64,000 nucleotides of DNA from the NCBI RefSeq assembly GCF_947258355.1, contig NZ_CAMYIC010000032.1, positions 1 to 64,000 of the forward strand, written 5' to 3'. Within the stretch, counting starts at the first letter, position 1, and every line of letters begins with the position of its first letter. This document shows, one piece after another, positions 3,221 to 63,939 of this stretch. The notes beneath the pieces are model-generated. The model did not search any database. It had not been told where the DNA came from and saw only the letters and a program-made list of their open reading frames with translations. Both the position numbers and the translations under genes were made by a program. Source of the DNA: an uncultured Allomuricauda sp. (GTDB lineage Bacteria > Bacteroidota > Bacteroidia > Flavobacteriales > Flavobacteriaceae).

Positions 3221-5284
3221 TTATGGGCAGTTGATGATACCAGAATCCCCATTAAAAGCCCAGTTCCAGGTATCTATAAGAGCCTGTCTGGCCTGTGCTC
3301 CCGTGGAACCGAGACAATATTGTAGGCCTGCTGTACCTATTGTCAAATCGCTGTTCAAAAATGGCTGCTGGGACCATCCAATTAAAGTTGCACTATAATT
3401 TTGTATGGACATCCCTGAACCGTCCAGCATATTCGATGCTTCCTGTAAGCTGGAAATATCCCAAGAACCAAGATCTTGGTCAAAGGATTCTGCAAGGATG
3501 AACATCTCTCCCATATTTGTCACACTGGAGGTCTCCCACCCTGATATGTCCTGGTCAAAGGAATCGGCAGCGGAGAACATTCCTACCATATTGGTTACAC
3601 TTGAGGTGTTCCACCCGCCGATGTCCTGGTTAAAGGAAGCTGCTCCAGCGAACATGCCTGCCATATTGGTTACAAGCGGGGTCTCCCACCCTGATATGTC
3701 CTGGTCAAAGGAATCGGCATCGGAGAACATAGATGTCATAGTTGTTACACTGGAGGTGTTCCACCCTGATATATTTTGGTTAAAGGAAGTTGCAAAATTG
3801 AACATGCTAACCATACTTGTCACACTGGAGGTGTCCCAGCCTGAGAGGTCCTGGTTAAAGGAAGTTGCAGCAAAGAAAACACCTGACATATCGGTCACAT
3901 TGGAAGTGTCCCAATCCCCGATGTCCCCATTGAACAAGGAGCACGATTCAAACATTAGGGACATATCCGTCACCGCTGAGAGGTCGGGCACATCGGTGGC
4001 GGTATATTCGGCAAGGTTTGCACATCCCCTAAAAGCGGATTCCATGCTCTGCCATTGGATGTCTCCCCACTGTTGTATGCCCACCAGTTTGTCGGCCGTG
4101 GCATCGCCACTGTGCATATTTATGGCGGGGAACTGCCCCTCTATGGCAATGGTGTAGGTCCCTGGCTCGTTATAGGCATGGAAGAACACTGGCTCATTGG
4201 TGAAGGAAATGTTTTCCACCGTCGTGCCATCTCCCCAGTTGATTCTAAAGTCGTATTCCGTGTTTACCTGTACCCCTATGATTATGGACTCAAATGCCTG
4301 TTCTGTAGTCCAAGTGGTCACAAAGGTGGAGGGATCCTCGGCGGAGGTGATGTCCTCCACGAGCACGGTCACAAAGATCTCGAGCTTGTTAACGCCATCG
4401 CTGGCGATCACGGTGATGTTGTGTGCGATATCGGTCTCATAGTCGAGGTTCTTGCCCTCGGCCAGGCTGAGCTCCCCGTCATCGTTGATCTCGAAAAGAT
4501 CGTTGTCGTTGGGGTCTATGGAGAAGGTGATGGCCTGTCCCTCGGGATCCTCGGCGGTGATCAGGCCGATAATCTCGGTATCGGCAATGGTCTCGACCAC
4601 GGAGAACTCGTACTCCACCTGCCCGGTGGGCGCAAGATCCTCGGTGACGTTGATGGTGACCTCGGCGGTGGCCGTGCCACCCTTACCGTCGCTTACCTGC
4701 ACGGTGATCACATGCTGTTCCTGTTCTTCAAAGTCCAGGGTGGTACCTTCCGTAAGGCTCAATACCCCTTCGGGGGTGATCTCAAAGTGGTCGTTGTCGT
4801 TTTCGGCAATGGAGAAGGTCAGCTCGTCCTGGTCCTGGTCCGTGGCCGTTACGGTGCCTATTTCTTCGGTGTCGGCAATGCTCTCGACCACCTCAAAGGC
4901 CTGGGCCGCGATCACCGGGGCCACATTGTCGGGCTCGGGCTCGGTCACGGTGAAGGTCTTGGTGCTGGTGGCGGTATTCCCGCCCACGGTCACGGTGATC
5001 TTGCCGGAGGTGGCGCCCTGGGGCACGGTGATGGCCAGTTTGGTTGCCGTGGGCGTTCCGCTTATGGTCGCCGTGGCGCTTCCCAGCTTTACGGTGTTGG
5101 CAGCGGCGGTGGTGCCGAAGTTGGTCCCGTTGATGGTGACCAAGGTGCCCACCGGGCCCTGTTCGGGCGTAATGCTGGTAATGGTCGGCGCCTTGGCCGT
5201 TGGCGTACTTGGCCCATCGTCCTTGGAACAGGACCAAAGGGCGGCCACTGCAAAGAGCGAAAGGGCTAATTTTTTAAGATTCAT
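3221..5284 (-). CDS. Surface lipoprotein with TIG, cadherin-like and DUF285 repeats (paralogue 1)
   Basis: A 687-residue predicted surface lipoprotein. The signal peptide ends in a lipobox with Cys19, and the following SKDD matches the K-(D/E)2 export signal known from Capnocytophaga surface lipoproteins. Domains in order: IPT/TIG (about 32-114), two cadherin-like repeats with DxNDN-type motifs (122-215 and 222-312), a PKD-like segment with INWGDGT (340-385), then six 25-residue DUF285 (BspA-like) repeats of the form W(D/N/E)TSSVTxMxxMFxxAxSFxQDI (about 457-610), and a C-terminal cap. DUF285 proteins are usually adhesive; the ligand here is unknown. Its paralogue lies directly upstream. The cadherin part is unusually GC-rich for this genome. 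Confidence 0.88.
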
Positions 5285-5310: not shown

Positions 5311-5347
5311 CAAGGTGTCATTTTTGAAGAAGAATTTGGCTCATGAT

Positions 5348-5377
5348 CTGACGGATGCCCTGTTTGGGTTGATGGAT
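5348..5377 (-). promoter_or_regulatory. Direct-repeat operator candidate (9-12-9) of lipoprotein gene 1
   Basis: Reading toward the gene, ATCCATCAA (5377-5369) is followed after 12 bases by ATCCGTCAG (5356-5348). The same pair in the same order stands before the EF-hand lipoprotein gene (51200-51229), and variants stand before two more lipoprotein genes. Nine-base direct repeats with 12-13 base spacing are the known site layout of LytTR-domain regulators. The pair ends about 64 bases before the start codon. Confidence 0.55.
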
Positions 5378-5430
5378 GTTCTTTTTTGAAGAAGTCAGAG
5401 CTCAGATATGAGAGGTCAGAGATCCGTTCT

Positions 5431-5513
5431 TGTCATTTCGAACGAATGTGAGAAATCTAAAAATAGAAGAAGAGATTTCTCCATCGTCACTTCGTTCCTC
5501 ATGTCGAAATGAC
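5431..5513. repeat. Nested inverted-repeat element (TGTCATTTCGAA type)
   Basis: The ends TGTCATTTCGAA and TCGAAATGAC are inverted copies, and AGAAATCT / AGATTTCT form an inner pair. It is the same family as 2890-3023 and 34031-34123 and lies between the two lipoprotein paralogues. Confidence 0.75.
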
Positions 5514-5559
5514 CTCTTATCGTCACGCTGAACTTGTTTCAGGGTCTCACTCAGATGGG

Positions 5560-5580
5560 ATTCCGTGTCAAGCACGGAAT
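5560..5580. repeat. Hairpin ATTCCGTG-TCAAG-CACGGAAT
   Basis: A perfect 8-bp stem with a 5-base loop, related to the hairpin inside the element at 2786-2851. It is part of a mosaic of short palindromes that fills the gap between the two paralogues. Confidence 0.65.
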
Positions 5581-5639
5581 GACAGCTCTGCATCCAGAGT
5601 AGAATGCCAACTTGGGTCGCTGAGCGCTGGCCATTGAGC

Positions 5640-5660
5640 GCCTGCCTGCCGCAGGCAGGC
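5640..5660. repeat. Perfect 10-bp palindrome GCCTGCCTGC-C-GCAGGCAGGC
   Basis: Two 10-base arms are separated by one base. It is much more GC-rich than the surrounding intergenic DNA and has no T-tract, so it is not a normal terminator. A TTCGAGAAATCT word follows, as in the neighbouring repeat elements. Confidence 0.7.
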
Positions 5661-5777
5661 GAAGGGGGCATTCGAGAAATCTTTCTTATCCAGTAATCGG
5701 ACATCAGAAGTCTGAGCTCTGAAGTCTTATCTCTGATTTCTGACACCTGTCCCCTGACATCTTAAATCTTATCAGCT

Positions 5778-5848: not shown

Positions 5849-7669
5849 TTATGGGCAGTTCGCGAGTCCTACATCTCCCACAAAATCCCAGCCAATGCCT
5901 TCTAAAATATTCATGGCATCAATGGCGTCTTCTCCACAATATTGCAGGCCGTTTGCTCCAACCGTTACATTGGGTTGTAGGTCTGCTTGCTGGCCGGCCC
6001 ATCCAATCAAGGTGGCATTGTAACTCACCTGTGACATTCCAGAGCCGTTCAACATGCCTGTGGCAGTTGTAAGGCTGGACAAATTCCAAGTTGCCAAAGA
6101 GTTACTAAAACTGGAAGCATTGTTAAACGTATTGTTCATATTCGTTACATTACTGGTATCCCAACCTCCAATATTCCTGTTAAAATCGGTAGCATCTTGG
6201 AACATTGAGGACATATCCTGGACATTGGTGGTATTCCAACCTCCAATTCCTCCGTTAAACGAACTGGCGCCCCAAAACATATAGGACATATCCGTAATGT
6301 TGCTGACATCCCATGAACTTACTCCACTTTCCATTGAAAAGCAGTCTGCAAATGTATAAGCGGCCAGGGTGACTTGGGATAGATTCGGCACATCTTCTGC
6401 GTTGATTTCCATATTCTCACAGCCATAGAAGGCATAATTCATGCTGGCCCATACAATCTCGCCCCACTGGTCGATGGTTCTTAGTTTATGAGCACTTCCA
6501 TTGTCATCCATATATATTGCTGGGAACTCTCCTTGGATCGCTATTTGATAGACTCCCTGTGAGGCATATTGATGGTCGACTGAAGATAAACCGGAACCAG
6601 AGATTACTTCGATGGTGCCGTCGCCCCAATTAATGGTGAAATTGTATTCCAAAAGATTGCTCAATCCAATTTCAATCGTGTCCCCATCAAAATCAGTAAG
6701 CCATGTGGTCACAAAGGTAGAGGGATCGTCTATGTTGATGATATCCTCTACGTTAATGGTAACGGAGATTTCGACCTCGTTAAAGCCATCACTTGCAGTT
6801 ACGGTAATATTATGGGCCGTATCTGTTTCATGGTCCAGGTTCTTACCATCAGCAAGGCTCAATTCGCCATCGTTATTGATCTCGAAAAGGTCGTTATCAT
6901 TATCGGATATGGAGAAGGTGATGTCCTGTCCTTCTGGATCATCCATGCTAATGGCCCCTATGGCTTCGGTATCGGGAATGATCTCAGCAACAGAGAAATT
7001 GTACTGCGTTTCTCCTGTTGGCGCCAAATCTTCGGAGACATTTATGGTGATATCGGCAGAGTCAACTCCTCCCTTTCCATCGCTCACTTGTACGGTAATG
7101 GTGTGGGAGTCTGCGGTATTAAAATCAAGTTTTTTGCCCTCCGCCAGACCAAGCAGTCCAGTGTTTTGATCAATAACAAAAAGATCATTGTCGTTTGATG
7201 ATATCACGAAGCTAAGTTCGTCTCCGTCTTCATCGTTGGCAACTACTTCACCAATCTCTTGAACGCTTTCCATGACCTCGAATTCTTGGGCCGCGATCAC
7301 CGGTGCCACATTATCGGGTTCGGGTTCGGTCACGGTGAAGGTTCCGGTGCTGGTGGTGGTATTCCCGCCTACGGAAACGCTGATCTTTCCGGAGGTGGCG
7401 CCCTGTGGCACGGTGATGGTCAGTTTGGTTGCCGTGGGCGTTCCGCTTATCGTTGCCGTGGCGCTTCCCAGCTTCACGGTGTTGGCAGCGGCGGTGGTGC
7501 CAAAATTGGTCCCGTTGATGGTGACCAGGGTGCCCACCGGGCCCTGGTCGGGCGTAAAGCTGGTAATGGTCGGTGCCTTGGTCGTTGGCGTGCTCGGGCC
7601 ATCGTCCTTGCTACAGGATCCTAAGGTGATAATGGTAATAAGTGATAAAAAAAGATTTCTAATTTTCAT
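5849..7669 (-). CDS. Surface lipoprotein with TIG, cadherin-like and DUF285 repeats (paralogue 2)
   Basis: A 606-residue paralogue of the next gene. I chose the ATG at 7669 because it gives a proper lipoprotein signal peptide (Cys19 followed by SKDDGP); the longer frame adds 19 unlikely residues. Order: TIG domain, two cadherin-like repeats, PKD-like segment (INWGDGT), about three DUF285 repeats (against six in the paralogue), and the same C-terminal cap (NATLIGW, GLQYC). The first 110 residues are almost identical to the paralogue at DNA level, whereas the cadherin and DUF285 parts have diverged and use more AT-rich codons. Likely a cell-surface adhesin or binding protein; the ligand is unknown. 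Confidence 0.87.
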   Translation of the reverse strand: MKIRNLFLSLITIITLGSCSKDDGPSTPTTKAPTITSFTPDQGPVGTLVTINGTNFGTTAAANTVKLGSATATISGTPTATKLTITVPQGATSGKISVSVGGNTTTSTGTFTVTEPEPDNVAPVIAAQEFEVMESVQEIGEVVANDEDGDELSFVISSNDNDLFVIDQNTGLLGLAEGKKLDFNTADSHTITVQVSDGKGGVDSADITINVSEDLAPTGETQYNFSVAEIIPDTEAIGAISMDDPEGQDITFSISDNDNDLFEINNDGELSLADGKNLDHETDTAHNITVTASDGFNEVEISVTINVEDIINIDDPSTFVTTWLTDFDGDTIEIGLSNLLEYNFTINWGDGTIEVISGSGLSSVDHQYASQGVYQIAIQGEFPAIYMDDNGSAHKLRTIDQWGEIVWASMNYAFYGCENMEINAEDVPNLSQVTLAAYTFADCFSMESGVSSWDVSNITDMSYMFWGASSFNGGIGGWNTTNVQDMSSMFQDATDFNRNIGGWDTSNVTNMNNTFNNASSFSNSLATWNLSSLTTATGMLNGSGMSQVSYNATLIGWAGQQADLQPNVTVGANGLQYCGEDAIDAMNILEGIGWDFVGDVGLANCP

Positions 7670-7740
7670 AACAAAATTGTTTATGGGATTATTTAATAGG
7701 TTGCAAGATGTGGTTTTGCCAAACAATTTTTTGGTACGAT

Positions 7741-7792
7741 CTGACGGATGCCCTGTTTGAGTTGACGGGTGGACCTTTACAGATTGACGGGA
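7741..7792 (-). promoter_or_regulatory. Triple direct-repeat operator candidate of lipoprotein gene 2
   Basis: Reading toward the gene, three nine-base units follow each other: TCCCGTCAA (7792-7784), ACCCGTCAA (7770-7762) and ATCCGTCAG (7749-7741). They are spaced 13 and 12 bases, so the period is 22 then 21. The two proximal units correspond to the pair in front of the paralogue; the third is extra. The spacing puts all three on the same DNA face, as LytTR-type regulators require. The last unit ends 71 bases before the start codon. Confidence 0.55.
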
Positions 7793-42565: not shown

Positions 42566-45500
42566 ATGAAAAAAGGACTTCTTTTTTTGTTATGTGCAGT
42601 TTTTGTAACACTCACCTTTGCACAGACCGCCAACGATTATTTTGAACCCATGAAATTCAGGAACATAGGCCCTTTTCGGGGTGGACGTTCTGTAACCGCC
42701 AGTGGGGTGGTGGGCGACCCGCTTACCTATTACATGGGAACTACCGGAGGAGGTTTATGGAAGACCAGCAATGCAGGGGGTCAATGGGAGAACATTTCAG
42801 ATGGTTTTTTTGATATGGGCTCTGTGGGTGCAGTTTCCGTATCCCAATCGAATCCCAATGTTGTGTACTGTGGTATGGGAGAACACGCCCCTCGTGGTGT
42901 GATGACCTCATATGGTGATGGCATGTACAAATCCAACGATGCAGGAAAAACATGGATCAAGCTGGGCCTTGAAAAAACCCAGCATATTTCACGGATTATT
43001 GTCCATCCAACAAATCCGGATACTGTCTATGTTGCCGCCCAAGGTGCCCTGTATGCTCCCAATCCCGAAAGAGGGGTTTACCGGTCCATGGATGGTGGAA
43101 AAACTTGGGAGAAGATTTTATATGTGGATGAAGGAACCGGAGCTGCGGAACTTTCCATGGATGCAAACAATCCTTTGGTTTTATATGCTGCTATGTGGGA
43201 GCATCAGCGTAAACCCAATAAAGTGATTAGCGGCGGACCTGGAAGTGGCTTGTATAAAAGTACCGATGGTGGGAACACCTGGAAAGAGATGACCAAAGGC
43301 TTGCCAGAAGAAAAAGGAAAAATGGCCATTGCAGTAAGTGCTGCCAATTCTGATAAGGTCTATGCAGTAATAGAAAGCGACTCTAACCAAGATAAGGGAG
43401 GTTTGTTCGTCTCAAATGATGCTGGTGATAGCTGGCACATGATAAGTGGTGATAACCGTTTGGTACAGCGTGCGTGGTACTATATTGAAGTATTTGCAGA
43501 CCCCAATGATGAGGATACGGTATATGTTCTCAGTGCCTCCATGTTCCGTTCCGAAGATGGTGGTAAAACCTGGGAGACCATTTCGGTTCCCCACGGCGAC
43601 ACCCACGATTTGTGGATCAATCCTAATGATTCCAAAAACATTCTTTTAGCAGATGATGGTGGGGCAACCATCTCTTTTGACTACGGAAAACATTGGACGC
43701 ATCAGGATAATATGCCAACGGCCCAATTTTATCGAATTAATACGGACAATCTTTTTCCGTATAACATTTATGGAGGTCAACAAGACAATACTTCTGTAAA
43801 AATTGCAAGTTTATCTGTAGGTCGATGGAGTATTGGAAGAGAAGACTGGCACTATTCCGCAGGTGGTGAGAGTGCCTTTTTGGGCTTTGATCCAGATAAT
43901 CCCCGCTATGTAATGGGTGGAAGTTATTTGGGAACCATTGAACTTTTGGATATGGAATCCAAAATGTCCAGCAATGTGATGGCGGCACCAATTCAGTATT
44001 TGGGACGTGATGCCCGCGATATGAAATACCTGTACAATTGGAACGCACCCATAATTTGGTCCAAGCACGAACCAGGAACGTTTTACCATGGGGCACAATT
44101 GGTACTCCGAACAAGGGATAACGGTGTGACTTGGGAAGAAATATCACCAGATTTAACTAGAGATCAAGATGAATTACAAGGAAAAGGAGGAGGTCCATAT
44201 ACCAATGAGGCTGTTGGGGCTGAAAATTATGGAACCTTGTCCTATATCATCGAGTCACCTCACGAAGCTGGAGTACTGATCACAGGCAGTGATGATGGTT
44301 TGGTACACATTACCAAAAACGGAGGTGAATCTTGGGAAAATATCACTCCAAAGGGATTAAAGGAATGTTTGGTGAACGCCATTGAAGTTTCGCCTCACAA
44401 TCCAGGCACTATTTACATCGCTACCACACGATATAAATTCAACGATTATACCCCCGCATTATATAAGAGTACCAACTATGGAAAAAGTTGGACCAACATT
44501 AGCGAAGGAATCCCTTATGGAGCCTTTACCCGCGTTGTTCGTGAAGATCAAGAACAAAAAGGCTTGTTGTATGCAGGTACCGAAAAGGGACTTTATGTAT
44601 CTTGGAACGATGGGCAAAAATGGGAACCGCTACAATTGAATTTACCGAAGACTCCGATTACGGACCTAAAAGTTCATCGAGGTGACCTGATTGTCGCAAC
44701 ATCAGGGAGGAGTTTCTGGATATTGGACAACATTACCACACTTTCTCAATATAAGAGTAGCAACGATGAAATGAAAATTTTTAAACCAGAAGAAGCCATT
44801 CACGGATATTGGGGAAGTCAACTGAACAGCAACTCCAAAAGTGTAACAGGAACCAGTACTTTTGAAGGTGTTAACCCGGCCAACGGTATGGTAATTTATT
44901 ACAATCTGCCGGAGCAAATGGATTCTACAGAAGTGACCATGGAGATTTTGGACGGACAGGGGAAAGTGGTTCGCAATTTCACTTCCAAAAAAGATAAAAG
45001 CTATATACCCCACAATGGTGGAGGAGCACCACCAAAACCTGTTTTGGGAACGGATAAAGGTCTGAATCGTTTTGTTTGGGATTTAAAAACGCCGATTGTA
45101 CCAGGTGTCCCAGGAGTTTATATCGAGGCTAATTTTACGGGGCATAAAGTACCGCCAGGTAGCTATACGATTAATTTGAAAGCTGGCGATAAAATGGTTT
45201 TCACAAACGGAACCATTGTACCAACCCCGAACACCGATATTTCCCAAGAGCGGTTTGAGGAGCACCATGCTATAATGACGGATTTTGAGGCGAAGTTGAC
45301 GGACATGCACAACAAGGTGAATAAACTCAAAAAAGTTCAAGAGCAATTACAAAAGCTTTTGAAGGATTTGGAAAATGATGAACTTAAAAAAGAAGGTCAA
45401 GCAGTTTTGAAAAAGCTGAAAGATTGGGATGGAGAAATGGTACAACGCAAATCAAAGGCTTATGACGATGTGGAGAACTTTCCCAACAAGTTTACTGCGG

Positions 45501-50340: not shown

Positions 50341-50370
50341 TATCGTCAATTCATTTGTGTCATTCATCAA
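50341..50370 (+). promoter_or_regulatory. Direct-repeat operator candidate (9-12-9) of the collagen-like lipoprotein gene
   Basis: TATCGTCAA (50341-50349) and ATTCATCAA (50362-50370) are separated by exactly 12 bases. They are weaker copies of the ATCC(G/A)TCAA unit seen before three other lipoprotein genes. The pair lies about 94 bases before the start codon, some 20 bases (two helical turns) farther than at the EF-hand gene. Confidence 0.4.
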
Positions 50371-50421
50371 TTGGTAACCCAGTTAGGTTAGTTAGGGTAA
50401 AATTCACCCATGTATACAACA

Positions 50422-50463: not shown

Positions 50464-51054
50464 ATGAAGACATTAAAATTATTTAGTATGGCCATGCTAT
50501 GTATGGCAATAGCATTGGTTTCCTGTTCTGGAGAAGATGGGGAAACCGGACCCCAGGGTCTACAAGGTCCTCAGGGAGAACAAGGAATTCAAGGCCCTCA
50601 AGGTGAACAGGGCCCTCAAGGTGAAGAAGGAAATGCCAACGCCCAATCCATTACATTTGATATGACCGAGTTTGTTGGAACCATATTTGTCGGTTCCTCA
50701 GATGAGCTTACGGAAGAAGTAATTGCAAAGGATGCAATTTTATATTATCTGGAAGTACAAACTGTAAATGCTCCAAGGTTCTTTTCAATTCCAGGTACCG
50801 TGTCTGGAGACTTTAATACCCAAGTATATACGGAGCCTGGAAATGTAAATATAAACTTTAGAGAGTTAGATAATTCCTCAAGCTATGTAATTTCAGAAAA
50901 TGACAATTTACAGAGTTTAAGAGTTGTGATTATTGAAAGTAATGCAAACACTGGTTCCAAATCTTCACAAAGTCTTGTCTTAGCCGAGCTCAAAGCTGCG
51001 GGAGTTGATACAAGTGACTACCATTCTGTTGCCGAATATTTTGGTTTAGAATAA
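50464..51054 (+). CDS. Collagen-like lipoprotein
   Basis: A 196-residue lipoprotein (lipobox ALVSC, Cys21, then SGEDGE, an acidic surface-export-like signal). Residues about 26-56 are ten Gly-X-Y triplets rich in Pro-Gln and Glu (GPQGLQGPQGEQGIQGPQ), able to form a collagen-type triple helix. The C-terminal 135 residues form a mainly beta domain that I do not recognise, which may trimerise the stalk. It is a likely surface fibre or tip protein. An operator candidate and a good -7 element lie upstream, and a GNRA-loop terminator follows. Confidence 0.83.
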   Translation: MKTLKLFSMAMLCMAIALVSCSGEDGETGPQGLQGPQGEQGIQGPQGEQGPQGEEGNANAQSITFDMTEFVGTIFVGSSDELTEEVIAKDAILYYLEVQTVNAPRFFSIPGTVSGDFNTQVYTEPGNVNINFRELDNSSSYVISENDNLQSLRVVIIESNANTGSKSSQSLVLAELKAAGVDTSDYHSVAEYFGLE

Positions 51055-51199: not shown

Positions 51200-51229
51200 A
51201 TCCATCAATCGAAAACAGCTATCCGTCAA
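51200..51229 (+). promoter_or_regulatory. Direct-repeat operator candidate (9-12-9) of the EF-hand lipoprotein gene
   Basis: ATCCATCAA (51200-51208) and ATCCGTCAA (51221-51229) are near-perfect copies separated by 12 bases. Order and spacing equal those in front of lipoprotein gene 1 at 5348-5377, and the distance to the start codon (62 bases) is also nearly the same, although the two genes are unrelated. A TATTTTCG (51260-51267) may be the -7 element. Confidence 0.55.
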
Positions 51230-51291
51230 TTAAAGTATAGTAACAGGCGTTCCTTATTCTATTTTCGCAGGAATTAATTAAAATCCCAAAT

Positions 51292-51519
51292 ATGACAAAG
51301 TTTAACTTACTTAAAATTAATTTATTGATAATTGGTACCTTTTTGATTTCATGCTCCAAAGAATCAAATGAGGCAATGGAAGATACTTCAAGGCTTTCTG
51401 CAACGGAATATCTTGATGAAGCCCATTGTTGGGACCTGAACAATAATGGCATTGCTGATAGGGGAGAGGATAAAAACAAGGATGGAAAAGTAGATACCAA
51501 CGATTGTAATCAAAGGTAG
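51292..51519 (+). CDS. Small EF-hand lipoprotein
   Basis: A 75-residue lipoprotein: lipobox LISC with Cys21, followed by SKESNEAMED. The C-terminal half has two calcium-loop-like segments, DLNNNGIADRGED and DKNKDGKVDTND, the second a textbook EF-hand loop with Asp at positions 1, 3, 5 and the acidic end. Two Cys (AHCWD and NDCNQ) flank the loops and may be disulfide-linked. It could be a surface Ca2+-binding peptide or a dockerin-like module. Its upstream operator and a terminator support it as a real gene. Confidence 0.75.
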   Translation: MTKFNLLKINLLIIGTFLISCSKESNEAMEDTSRLSATEYLDEAHCWDLNNNGIADRGEDKNKDGKVDTNDCNQR

Positions 51520-60659: not shown

Positions 60660-61232
60660 ATGTTTCAAATAGGAAAAACCATTGTATCTGAAGAGATATT
60701 GGAAAACGATTTTGTATGCAATCTAAATGCTTGCAAGGGAGCTTGTTGTGTGGGAGGGGAGTATGGAGCACCGTTGGAAGATTCAGAAACGGATAAACTG
60801 GTCAATATCTATCAAGATGTTAAACCCTTCTTACGTCCCGAAGGTATCAAGGCCATTGAGGAACATGGGGTTTTTGTGAAAGGTGAAGATGGGGAATGGG
60901 AAACCCCTTTGGTAAACAACAACGAGTGTGCCTATGTAATTTTTTCTGAAGATGGCATTGCAAAATGTGGCCTGGAGGCTGCCTACGAGGCGGGTGCCAC
61001 CAAATGGAAAAAGCCTATCTCTTGCTATCTGTATCCGGTAAGAACCAGAGAGTACTCGGAATTTACGGCAGTAAACTACCATAAATGGGAGATTTGTGAT
61101 CCAGCCTGTGCGTTGGGGGAAGAGCTAAAGGTTCCTATTTACAAATTTGTAAAGGATGCATTGGTCAAAAAGTTTGGGGAGGCCTGGTATCGTGAACTGG
61201 AAGAGGTGGCAGCCGAAAATACTAAATCGTAG
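60660..61232 (+). CDS. DUF3109 family cysteine-rich protein
   Basis: A 190-residue cytoplasmic protein. Its Cys pattern is CNLNACKGACCVGG (residues about 20-33), AKCGLEAA, ISCYLYP and ICDPACALG, a total of nine Cys that resembles the zinc/iron-chelating YkgJ-like families. It probably binds a metal or Fe-S cluster. The function is not known. Its 3' end overlaps that of the opposite sensor kinase by 11 bases. Confidence 0.88.
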   Translation: MFQIGKTIVSEEILENDFVCNLNACKGACCVGGEYGAPLEDSETDKLVNIYQDVKPFLRPEGIKAIEEHGVFVKGEDGEWETPLVNNNECAYVIFSEDGIAKCGLEAAYEAGATKWKKPISCYLYPVRTREYSEFTAVNYHKWEICDPACALGEELKVPIYKFVKDALVKKFGEAWYRELEEVAAENTKS

Positions 61233-63189
61233 GAATATCCAATACTACTTTTGTTCCAATGGGATTGCCTTTGGTGTCAAAAAGATCTAAAATATCCACA
61301 TCAAATTTATTTTGATAATCCTTTGCAAAATTGGCCAAACGTTCCTTGGTGATTCGAATGCCCAATGATTTTCTTTTAAGCACCCTATTTTCTTTGTTTA
61401 CTTCCGCCATGGTTCTGCCCACACCATTATCAACGATTTCTATACTAACATGTCCCTTATCCTTATTTTTCACATTGATCTGTATCTTCTTTTCACCATC
61501 TTTAGGGGAGAGGCCGTGCCAAAGTGAATTTTCCAGAAATGGTTGCAATGTTAGCGAGGGTATTTTGATATTCTCAATATTGATGTCTTTTTCTACTTCT
61601 ATTTTAAAATCTATTTCGTTGGAAAACCTTATGTTTTCGATATTCATGTAGAGTTCCATCGTATCCAATTCCTCGGCCAATGGAATTTCCTTTTGGGATG
61701 AGGCCTCCAGAATTTTACGAACCAGTTTGGAAAATTTGTTCAGATAATGGACCGCATTTTTTTGTTCGTTGTTTATTATATAAAGTTTGATGGAATTTAA
61801 CGAGTTGAACAGGAAATGTGGGTTCATTTGACTACGCAGCATTTTTTGCTCCAATGTAAGCACCCTTTTCTCGTTTTTGTTCTGGTATTGGCGATATAGA
61901 ATATAAAGAATAGAAGATATGAGTCCTACGATCAAGGCACTTACCAATAGTGTGGTCTGTTGTTTCTTTAATCTTAAGCGAACAATTTCATTTTCCTTGG
62001 CGAGAACGGCTATTTGGTTGTTCTTCTTGTCATTTTCGTACTTAATGATAATGTCGTTCATGTACCGAAGATTCGTAGCACTGGAAATCTGCTTGTCGTA
62101 CTCGTCGGCTTTTTTATAAAATTCGAAGGCTTTTTTGTAATCCCCTTTGGTGTTTTTAAGCTCGGATAATTTCTCATAACCATATAGGATATTGCTCGGA
62201 ATATTTCGGTTTTGAGCCATTTTAAGACCCTCCTGTATAAAGTTCTCGGCCTCTGTATAATTGCCTAACTTGGTGTGGGCCCACCCCGTATTTATGAAAA
62301 CAAGGGAGGTTATTGAAAAGTCACCTATTTCTTTGGATTCTTCATGAAGCGGTTCCAATAGCACCAATGCCAGATACGGCATGTTTTGTTTAAGGTATAT
62401 CTGGGCAAGGCTGTTCTTGCATATTACACGGCCAATGTCCGAATTTATTTCCTCATTGTATGCCAACGACTTTCTGTAATTTTCAAGAGCTGCTTCCAAA
62501 TCGCCTTTTTCCTCCAAACAATGTCCAATATTTTGATGATTGATGGCCAGGCCCAGTTTATTGCCAAGCTCTTCTTCCAGTTTTAGTGCTCTTTGAAATT
62601 GCAGGATGGCAAGGTCATATTGTTCCAAATTTTGGTAGAGGTTCCCAATACCGTTTAGGGCAACATTGATACTTCTTTTTATATGATTGGAGGGATTTTC
62701 CACTTGTTCTGCCAATTCCAATGCCTTTTGGTTGTAATCCAAAGCCGTTTTAATGACATCTGTACGCCTGTATACAACTCCAAGCATATTTAGACTAAGA
62801 ACCCTAAAATCGATATTATTCGCTTTTTCAGAAACCGCTAGGGCCTCTTCATGCAGCATTGTTGCTTTTTCATATTGGGAAATGTTCCGGTATTTCATGC
62901 CCAATAGGTTTAGGCCATAGGCCTGACCTTCCAAATAATCGTTCTCCTTACTTATGTTGACGAAATAGCGCAATAAGGTTGTATCCCTTTTGTCTGGGTA
63001 AAGTTCTTTGTCAAGCGATTCGTAAGTTTTGGGCTGTAGTTGAACCAGCGTCTCCGTTTTTTCTTGAAATGCTTCAGGGATTTGTTGGGCGATCAATGAA
63101 CCAAAAAACGAAAACCATAAAAGAAATATCAGAGTAACTTTTTGTACTCGATGTAGGTTTTCGATTTGTTGGAACTTTATAATAGGCAC
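61222..63189 (-). CDS. TPR-containing LytS-type sensor histidine kinase
   Basis: A 655-residue kinase: signal-like N-terminal helix (LIFLLWFSFFGSLIAQ), a periplasmic stretch with about seven tetratricopeptide repeats (about 85-380; for example AINHQNIGHCLEEKGDLEAAL), a membrane helix (about 420-440, TTLLVSALIVGLISSILYILY), and a His_kinase domain with MNPHFLFNSLNSIK and an ATPase with EIVDNGVGRTM. The TPRs probably sense a protein or peptide. Its partner regulator gene lies 15 bases upstream in the same operon. Confidence 0.93.
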   Translation of the reverse strand: MPIIKFQQIENLHRVQKVTLIFLLWFSFFGSLIAQQIPEAFQEKTETLVQLQPKTYESLDKELYPDKRDTTLLRYFVNISKENDYLEGQAYGLNLLGMKYRNISQYEKATMLHEEALAVSEKANNIDFRVLSLNMLGVVYRRTDVIKTALDYNQKALELAEQVENPSNHIKRSINVALNGIGNLYQNLEQYDLAILQFQRALKLEEELGNKLGLAINHQNIGHCLEEKGDLEAALENYRKSLAYNEEINSDIGRVICKNSLAQIYLKQNMPYLALVLLEPLHEESKEIGDFSITSLVFINTGWAHTKLGNYTEAENFIQEGLKMAQNRNIPSNILYGYEKLSELKNTKGDYKKAFEFYKKADEYDKQISSATNLRYMNDIIIKYENDKKNNQIAVLAKENEIVRLRLKKQQTTLLVSALIVGLISSILYILYRQYQNKNEKRVLTLEQKMLRSQMNPHFLFNSLNSIKLYIINNEQKNAVHYLNKFSKLVRKILEASSQKEIPLAEELDTMELYMNIENIRFSNEIDFKIEVEKDINIENIKIPSLTLQPFLENSLWHGLSPKDGEKKIQINVKNKDKGHVSIEIVDNGVGRTMAEVNKENRVLKRKSLGIRITKERLANFAKDYQNKFDVDILDLFDTKGNPIGTKVVLDIPTI

Positions 63190-63204: not shown

Positions 63205-63939
63205 TTAGAGCATATCCAAAAAATCGGATTTTTTTTGACGGGAAACAGGAATTTTATGATTGGATTCCAAAACCACGTAACCGTCGGTTTTAAGGAATTC
63301 TTTTATTTTATTGAGATTGATGATATAAGAATTGTGTATTCGAAAAAAGCTGCTTTCGGGTAAAAGTGCATTTACCTCTTTTAGCTTTTTGGTAAGAAGT
63401 ATTTTTTGCCCATCTGTAAGGAAAATGGTGCTGTAGTTACCATCGGATTCTGCATACAAGATATCTTCGCTGTTCAAGAAAACCAACTTACCATCGGTGT
63501 TAATCGTGATTTTTTTGCTTTGGGACTCAGCATTAAAGTTAAGTAAAATTTTCTCCAAACGCTCTACTGTAAGGTTCTTGGCATTATACCTTTTGATCTT
63601 GGCAATAGTTTCCTCAAGGTCATCCGTATCAATAGGTTTGAGGAGATAATCAATGGCCTCGTTTTTCAGTGCTTGCAATGCATATTGGTTATACGCCGTG
63701 GTAATAACAACAGGGAAGTTCTTGTTTTTAAGATTTTTAATAAACTGGAACCCGTCCATAGCCGGCATCTCAATATCCAAGAACAAACAATCAGGTGTGT
63801 TTTGTTCTAGATAGGTCAAGGCTTCCCGTGCATCTGTAAAGGACGCAATAATGTCCACTTCATCACTCAAATTGGTAAGTTCCCAACTTAAGCTTTGGAG
63901 CGCCTTGATTTCATCATCAACTATTACGGCTTCTAGCAT
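63205..63939 (-). CDS. LytTR family response regulator
   Basis: A 244-residue regulator. The receiver domain has acidic residues VDDE (8-10), phospho-acceptor Asp55 (CLFLDIEMPAMDG) and Lys in LLKPI. The LytTR DNA-binding domain follows (about 140-244; LYAESDGNYSTIFLTDG, FFRIHNSYIINLNKIKEF). LytTR proteins bind pairs of nine-base direct repeats spaced by 12-13 bases, the layout found in front of four lipoprotein genes in this window. A TAAATTTG (63965-63958, minus strand) may be its -7 element. Confidence 0.94.
   Translation of the reverse strand: MLEAVIVDDEIKALQSLSWELTNLSDEVDIIASFTDAREALTYLEQNTPDCLFLDIEMPAMDGFQFIKNLKNKNFPVVITTAYNQYALQALKNEAIDYLLKPIDTDDLEETIAKIKRYNAKNLTVERLEKILLNFNAESQSKKITINTDGKLVFLNSEDILYAESDGNYSTIFLTDGQKILLTKKLKEVNALLPESSFFRIHNSYIINLNKIKEFLKTDGYVVLESNHKIPVSRQKKSDFLDML

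Follow-up and report, generated by a model that had tools for sequence, protein, structure and literature searches.

LytTR operators, according to the accessible parts of the papers that describe them, are pairs of ~8-9-bp units repeated in direct orientation and set 10-13 bp apart, usually located just upstream of the -35 element; the repeat centre of AgrA lies near -60, RcoM and CoxC use triplets, and the LytTR-like operators of Bacteroides consist of 11-bp repeats with 11-bp gaps and come with a -33 element (PMC4227749, PMC11347149, PMC6193735). For the AraC-type hybrid regulators (HTCS) of Bacteroides, the accessible part of the source describes all predicted motifs as direct repeats averaging 21 bp, assigns to HTCS_Rgu-1 two sites of 12 bp separated by 9 bp, and terms the HTCS spacer non-conserved (PMC3878776).

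In the open-licence literature, no paper was found on a LytTR regulon in Flavobacter, the only work found that joins LytTR with Flagellimonas is a family-wide genome comparison of which part was accessible, and among the matches listed for LytTR direct repeats and Bacteroidetes lipoproteins no title points to such a regulon. To our knowledge, little is known about the signals that decide flavobacterial surface display outside sugar-uptake loci. Here we describe a direct repeat in an uncultured Allomuricauda sp. that is very probably, judging from its sequence context, the operator of one transcriptional activator of a large, genus-wide surface-protein regulon.

Direct-repeat sites in the window and their promoter geometry

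The window, i.e., the whole stretch of 64,000 nucleotides analysed, had been given a sequence-only reading in which repeated units precede four lipoprotein genes, always oriented toward the gene. All four sites were found in the present analysis with this orientation, one proving to be a triple (7740) and one degenerate (50341). The sites and their genes are as follows.

5347 to 5377, minus strand: operator of two units, ATCCATCAAC and ATCCGTCAGA, separated by 11 bases (period 21); score 39.9 with the independent matrix
3221 to 5284, minus strand: target gene, lipoprotein (CSKDDGP) with TIG, cadherin and DUF285 domains (Pfam)
7740 to 7792, minus strand: operator of three units, TCCCGTCAAT, ACCCGTCAAC and ATCCGTCAGA, with periods of 22 and 21; the proximal pair scores 36.2
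5849 to 7669, minus strand: target gene, paralogous lipoprotein (CSKDDGP) with TIG, cadherin and DUF285 domains (Pfam)
50341 to 50371, plus strand: weak operator of degenerate units, TATCGTCAAT and ATTCATCAAT, separated by 11 bases (period 21); score 18.7
50464 to 51054, plus strand: possible target gene, collagen-like lipoprotein (CSGEDGE); Pfam collagen repeat marginal
51200 to 51230, plus strand: operator of near-perfect units, ATCCATCAAT and ATCCGTCAAT, separated by 11 bases (period 21); score 39.9
51292 to 51519, plus strand: target gene, 75-aa lipoprotein (CSKESNE), the 'EF-hand' gene of the earlier reading

To avoid circularity, the independent matrix was built from 48 sites of two other genomes only (G183 and G181). 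With this matrix, the top four matches in the window (39.9, 39.9, 36.2 and 18.7) are exactly the four sites claimed previously, and the next match scores 5.6. The maximum in 20 Markov-simulated windows was 16.8 with the same matrix, and because this value comes close to 18.7, the collagen site at 50341 is the sole doubtful site of the window. The 7740-7792 site is classed as a triple because three units are present there. One further pair (45274-45304) is located within a coding frame and is absent among the matches scoring >4 with this matrix.

The distance from the last unit to the start codon is 62 bases at the 5347 site, 70 at the 7740 site (start codon at 7669), 61 at the 51200 site (start codon at 51292) and 92 at the collagen site, so that the distance of 63-71 bases previously given for three of the four sites holds within two bases. 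An octamer resembling a -7 element lies at offset 29 from the last unit at the 5347 site (CACCTTGT), the 7740 site (CATCTTGC) and the 51200 site (TATTTTCG, 51260-51267); at the collagen site no such element was found at the usual distance, and TAAAATTC occurs at 26 instead. The proposed gene families fared unevenly, in that TIG, cadherin and DUF285 are recovered by Pfam, the collagen repeat of the 50464-51054 protein is marginal (28.2 bits against a cut-off of 27.2), and for the supposed EF-hand protein (51292-51519) Pfam gives nothing at E 0.01. Elsewhere in the window, the intergenic stretch 5400-5720 gives the impression of a dispersed palindromic repeat sequence.

Among 133 non-redundant sites (107 doubles and 26 triples), the unit consensus is ATCCRTCAAYYS, present in two or three copies joined by the 9-base linker AAANNGGGC. 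Seven-base tandem repeats, downstream stretches shorter than 80 bases and sites with >62% downstream identity were dropped from this set; no coding filter was applied, and 5 of the 133 sites lie under an ORF of at least 200 aa. Most of the information resides within the two units and the AAA..GGGC linker. Above the first unit it amounts to at most 0.43 bits, faintly hinting at a third unit; directly below the last unit, too, little is conserved.

Past the last unit, TAnnTTTG (5 of 6 or better) occurs at offset 29 in 41 of the 133 sites and at offset 28 in 12, against a background of ~1.8 per offset. A -7-like element 28-29 bases past the last unit is therefore present in 53/133 sites; a related TAnnTTGY form also occurs, and a T is found at +33 in 125/133 sites and at +34 in 115/133. 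No -33 element is visible between the last unit and the -7-like element in these 133 sites. In the accessible part of its description, the sigma-A promoter of Flavobacterium psychrophilum has a -7 box, TAnnTTTG, spanning -12 to -5, and on that basis the last unit would fall at about -51 to -42, with a pair centred near -57. The promoters described here thus resemble flavobacterial sigma-A promoters in having a -7 element at a fixed place after many operators, but differ from them in lacking a conserved -33 element, and the combination of a -7-like element at 28-29 with an absent -33 box suggests the geometry of an activator site. Start codons follow the last unit by 59-66 bases in 34 of 113 assignable genes, and by 55-75 bases in 33 of 64 genes from three genomes.

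The sequence-only reading had taken the layout as evidence for LytTR regulation. Both the spacing, which agrees with the ~9-bp direct repeat pair 10-13 bp apart expected of LytTR operators, and the position just upstream of the core promoter, centred at ~-57 as compared with near -60 for AgrA, are consistent with this. Direct repeats of similar spacing are likewise shared with the LytTR operators of AgrA (Staphylococcus), HdrR/BrsR (Streptococcus) and RcoM/CoxC, triplets with those of RcoM/CoxC and a centre near -60 with that of AgrA; the differences are a unit of ~12 bases, a conserved linker, the missing -33 box and tens of unlinked sites. The LytTR-like operators of Bacteroides, as described in the accessible parts of the sources, are unlike the present operator in their 11-bp repeats, 11-bp gaps and -33 element. 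However, the 21-bp direct repeat of 12-bp sites and a 9-bp spacer published for the HTCS operators of Bacteroides, in the same phylum, matches the 12-base units and 9-base linker found here (the AraC/HTCS expectation being sites of 12-16 bp at ~21 bp), and since the 21-base layout is shared with these AraC-type operators, the layout argument for LytTR fails by itself. In the accessible part of the HTCS source, the regulons concern polysaccharide use, whereas the sites described here precede scattered surface proteins; the spacer is non-conserved there, whereas the AAA..GGGC linker is conserved here; and the triple arrays that make up 26/133 of the present sites go unmentioned. In our judgement, a LytTR protein is slightly favoured, since the linker is conserved and no second box follows the last unit.

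Distribution of the motif and its downstream genes

In the home assembly (3.30 Mb), pairs of CCRTCAA with a gap of 0-30 occur 21 times, compared with 5 in the reversed control. Nine of these pairs have a period of 21, two of them inside coding frames, and one has a period of 22, with 11 spread over the other 29 spacings (Poisson P ~3e-10). A longer pattern allowing up to 3 mismatches gave 40 matches in the home genome, compared with 3 in the reversed control. The first matrix was made from 26 of these 40 matches, at 23 promoters, the 14 inside ORFs having been dropped; 25 of the 26 lie under no ORF of at least 90 aa, and the 7740 site was kept by hand despite overlapping a 162-aa frame. Within the genus (probably Flagellimonas/Muricauda, judging from the named records with such sites), all 60 genomes, home included, contain matches, from 1 to 63 each and 975 in total, against 25 in the control; these raw counts include, in the matches listed, some coding and 7-base tandem-repeat matches. 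Two genomes are not above control (G167, 1 vs 1; G173, 2 vs 7). These data support the earlier proposals of genome-wide enrichment over control sequence and of a spacing-specific motif, with a period of 21 preferred.

In other genera, the pattern hardly rises above background. A scan of the family with a single genome for each genus (149 genomes, the home genome among them) found 158 matches in 66 of the 148 other genomes, compared with 66 in the control, and a hand sum that leaves out four genomes (G027, G075, G077 and G120) gives 79 matches against 56 in 144 genomes. In these four genomes, which belong to other genera, long arrays of the seven-base tandem repeat (AACCATC)n mimic the motif. 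A triple-repeat scan of named genomes yielded 83 stretches, of which 80 were listed as loci. Among those inspected, the intergenic sites with an A-tract linker come from Flagellimonas, Muricauda and Allomuricauda records and one unclassified Bacteroidia MAG, and most of the others are 21-base tandem or coding repeats.

The motif is conserved before homologous genes in other species, as the earlier reading had anticipated. Similar targets recur with a site, as judged by eye, among them collagen-like lipoproteins, TIG/cadherin-like ones and a small lipoprotein starting with CSKDD. A membrane-anchored AraC gene allowed 29 orthologous promoters to be compared: mean pairwise identity falls from 87% at 18 core columns to 74% across all 31 bases of the site, and to 33% in the 70 bases upstream. 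These 29 are the loci, of 30 in all, with a score >15, a selection by score that favours the motif columns.

Predicted lipoproteins account for 31/64 operator targets in three genomes and 2/47 non-targets of the window (Fisher P 1e-7), where the lipoprotein call is a crude, rule-based lipobox, the control genes are a small set from one window with a length of at least 150 aa, and targets could be as short as 60 aa. Four sites under ORFs were all counted as lipoprotein targets, and without them the fraction is 27/60; sites without an assignable gene (20/133, or 5/69 in the three genomes) were left out of the count. At least two acidic residues are present at +2 to +6 in 30 of 44 predicted lipoproteins. 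For example, the start CSKDDGP is close to the surface-export signal C-X-K-(D/E)2-X published for Capnocytophaga, as given in the accessible part of the source (PMC5080379). The remaining targets are other secreted or membrane proteins, together with what we take to be an SMI1-like protein and an antitoxin-like gene. The idea of a surface-lipoprotein regulon thus holds insofar as a genome-wide motif often precedes surface-type lipoprotein genes, but roughly every second assignable target lacks a lipoprotein prediction.

Several individual loci are of interest in their own right. In one genome (G183:C1:1391500-1411000), ten operator copies lie within 20 kb, several of them near-identical including the promoter stretch, and most precede a gene of their own, be it for a small secreted protein, a lipoprotein or something else, which looks like an array of promoter-plus-gene cassettes. 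At home, three neighbouring short secreted-protein genes (C17:844-5961) each have a triple operator, and in two of the three cases further secreted-protein genes come next, one with a segment that we presume to be GLPGLI-like. Elsewhere in G183 (C2:380500-384700), the gene behind an operator is a short antitoxin-like one, followed by a possible acetyltransferase frame (both named by eye); such a gene would be unexpected in a surface regulon.

Candidate regulators

For two regulator genes, almost every orthologue examined has the operator, but neither gene is present in every site-bearing genome. One encodes the membrane-anchored AraC protein (C11:53707-54351 in the home genome, HTH_18 domain); the other encodes a response regulator with Response_reg and LytTR domains on contig C28 (the C28 regulator), adjoined at home by a gene for a 7TMR-DISM and His_kinase protein. 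Two genomes without either gene (G150 and G170) still have sites before similar targets. Genomes with both genes (24) have a median of 19.5 sites, those with the C28 regulator only (20) a median of 9, those with the membrane AraC only (6) a median of 12.5 and those with neither (10) a median of 5.5, one of them having 25; because the relatedness of the genomes is uncorrected, these differences are only a hint.

An AraC-class protein, such as the autoregulated membrane-anchored AraC, is a possible but rather unlikely binder. The motif precedes 29 of its 30 orthologues with a score of at least 17 (27 score >20, two score 17.0 and 18.3, and one has none), and the median number of sites is 19 in genomes with the gene, as opposed to 7 in those that lack it (P 2e-4, phylogeny uncorrected). 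The 21-bp direct repeats published for the AraC-type regulators of Bacteroides are also consistent with this class, as is a second AraC-like gene, identified by eye in Muricauda sp. ARW1Y1, which has a perfect triple site. On the other hand, an orthologue of the membrane AraC, counted as present only within the block of best, near full-length matches, is found in 30/60 genus genomes and missing by that cut from the other 30, several of which are rich in sites: G199 (63 matches), G200 (31), G182 (29) and G155 (31; assembly 83% complete). On these four genomes the membrane AraC was dropped as sole regulator. Two other AraC types carry no motif scoring >12 at their loci (0/11 for a 360-aa type and 0/9 for a 506-aa type) and were likewise dropped, and the second box that a plain two-helix AraC half-site would lead one to expect is not conserved past the last unit.

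It is unlikely that the C28 LytTR regulator, autoregulated, controls all sites. At least one site scoring at least 15, often a triple, is present at 37 of 40 orthologue loci fetched, mostly before the regulator, its kinase or a neighbouring membrane-protein gene; in at least one case (G171) the only such site precedes a third gene, and the reversed-sequence control reaches 6.5 at most in the first 20 loci. The operator layout, the centre near -60 and the triple repeats known for LytTR proteins all fit, and two genomes that retain only remnants of the regulator have very few matches (G167, 1; G191, 4). Among loci of C28 orthologues in other genera, 2/6 have a nearby site, in each case ahead of a related secreted-protein gene and with a TAGnTTTG element (TAGTTTTG and TAGATTTG) exactly 29 bases on; no site was found at the other 4/6, one of which is only 2 kb long.

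The genus-wide distribution nevertheless argues against this regulator acting alone. The orthologue is present in 44/60 genus genomes, when truncated, pseudogene and most contig-end copies are excluded, and absent, broken or incomplete in the other 16/60. It was not found in G183 (49 matches), G150, G170, G189 and G205 and is N-terminally truncated in G181 (30 matches) and G203 (25 matches). As sole regulator the C28 protein, attractive for its own operator, was dropped on G183, G181, G203, G150 and G170. The difference in site counts is modest (median 15.5 with vs 9 without, P 0.04, phylogeny uncorrected), 14/20 loci in one set have no kinase ORF beside the regulator by one sequence test, and the Bacteroides LytTR-like operators, in the accessible parts of their descriptions, are of a different layout, as set out above. 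In G183, a site with a score of 26.2 precedes a gene for a sensor kinase, and the kinase part of this protein shares 52% identity with that of the C28 kinase. In G181, G203 and G167, the remains of the C28 regulator lie behind operator repeats; in the first two these remains run up to or into the beginning of another secreted-protein gene, which would fit a deletion that took out the intervening kinase.

The earlier reading had named, as one candidate among many, the LytTR protein encoded near the right end of the window:

63205 to 63939, minus strand: LytTR response regulator; present in 10/10 genomes tested, no clear site around it
61222 to 63189, minus strand: TPR histidine kinase, downstream of the LytTR gene

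That this protein is the binder is quite unlikely. It is well conserved (87-96% identity across 10/10 genomes) and has an adjoining TPR kinase, but its conservation is equal in the motif-poor genomes G191, G168 and G184, and four others of the 11 LytTR regulators tested together are equally universal, the five being present in 10/10 genus genomes, site-poor genomes included, at no less than 77% identity. No site >14.2 was found in the stretches around its 10 orthologues, and none >11.2 at home; nor do the upstream stretches of three universal LytTR genes (the window gene in 10 genomes, C41 in 6 and C26 in 4) contain a site >14.2. With no site around it and four equally universal LytTR proteins, nothing singles the window protein out. 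Between its gene and the next one upstream, beyond the window's right edge, lies a stretch of ~1.1 kb that has no ORF of 100 aa, and the operator was not found in it.

Finally, the notion that the repeats have no regulatory role, being due to chance or belonging to a dispersed or tandem family, is suggested by the (AACCATC)n arrays and 21-base tandem repeats that mimic the pattern in other genomes and by the near-identical copies with promoters in the one G183 cluster, but it is contradicted by the promoter geometry (orientation to the gene, with a -7-like element at a fixed distance and, in many cases, a start codon as well), as well as by variable linkers, conservation across orthologous promoters and matches far in excess of controls, and is hardly credible.

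A proposed activator of a surface-protein regulon

The reading that we prefer is that of an operator for one activator. Two or three 12-base units, 21 bases apart, lie on the same face of the DNA, where an activator could bind as a dimer or trimer in head-to-tail arrangement, its centre at about -57 relative to the transcription start, and replace the missing -33 contact; repression at the operator, instead of activation, may occur. Such an activator would switch on many unlinked surface genes together. It would have a domain that binds tandem repeats, of the LytTR class or, almost as plausibly in our judgement, of the AraC class, and may feed back on the membrane-anchored AraC gene and on the LytTR regulator locus, the two regulator loci at which, of those examined, the operator is most constant. 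More tentatively, we propose a surface-coat regulon in which a single tandem-repeat activator might drive dozens of unrelated lipoproteins from operator-promoter-gene cassettes that are gained and lost, with the membrane AraC and the LytTR regulator as feedback nodes.

For the Bacteroidota, these comparisons mean that a 21-base direct repeat alone does not tell LytTR from AraC regulation. For the genus as a whole, an operator so precisely defined, with as many as tens of marked promoters in a genome, would provide a list of co-regulated surface proteins, many of them of unknown function.
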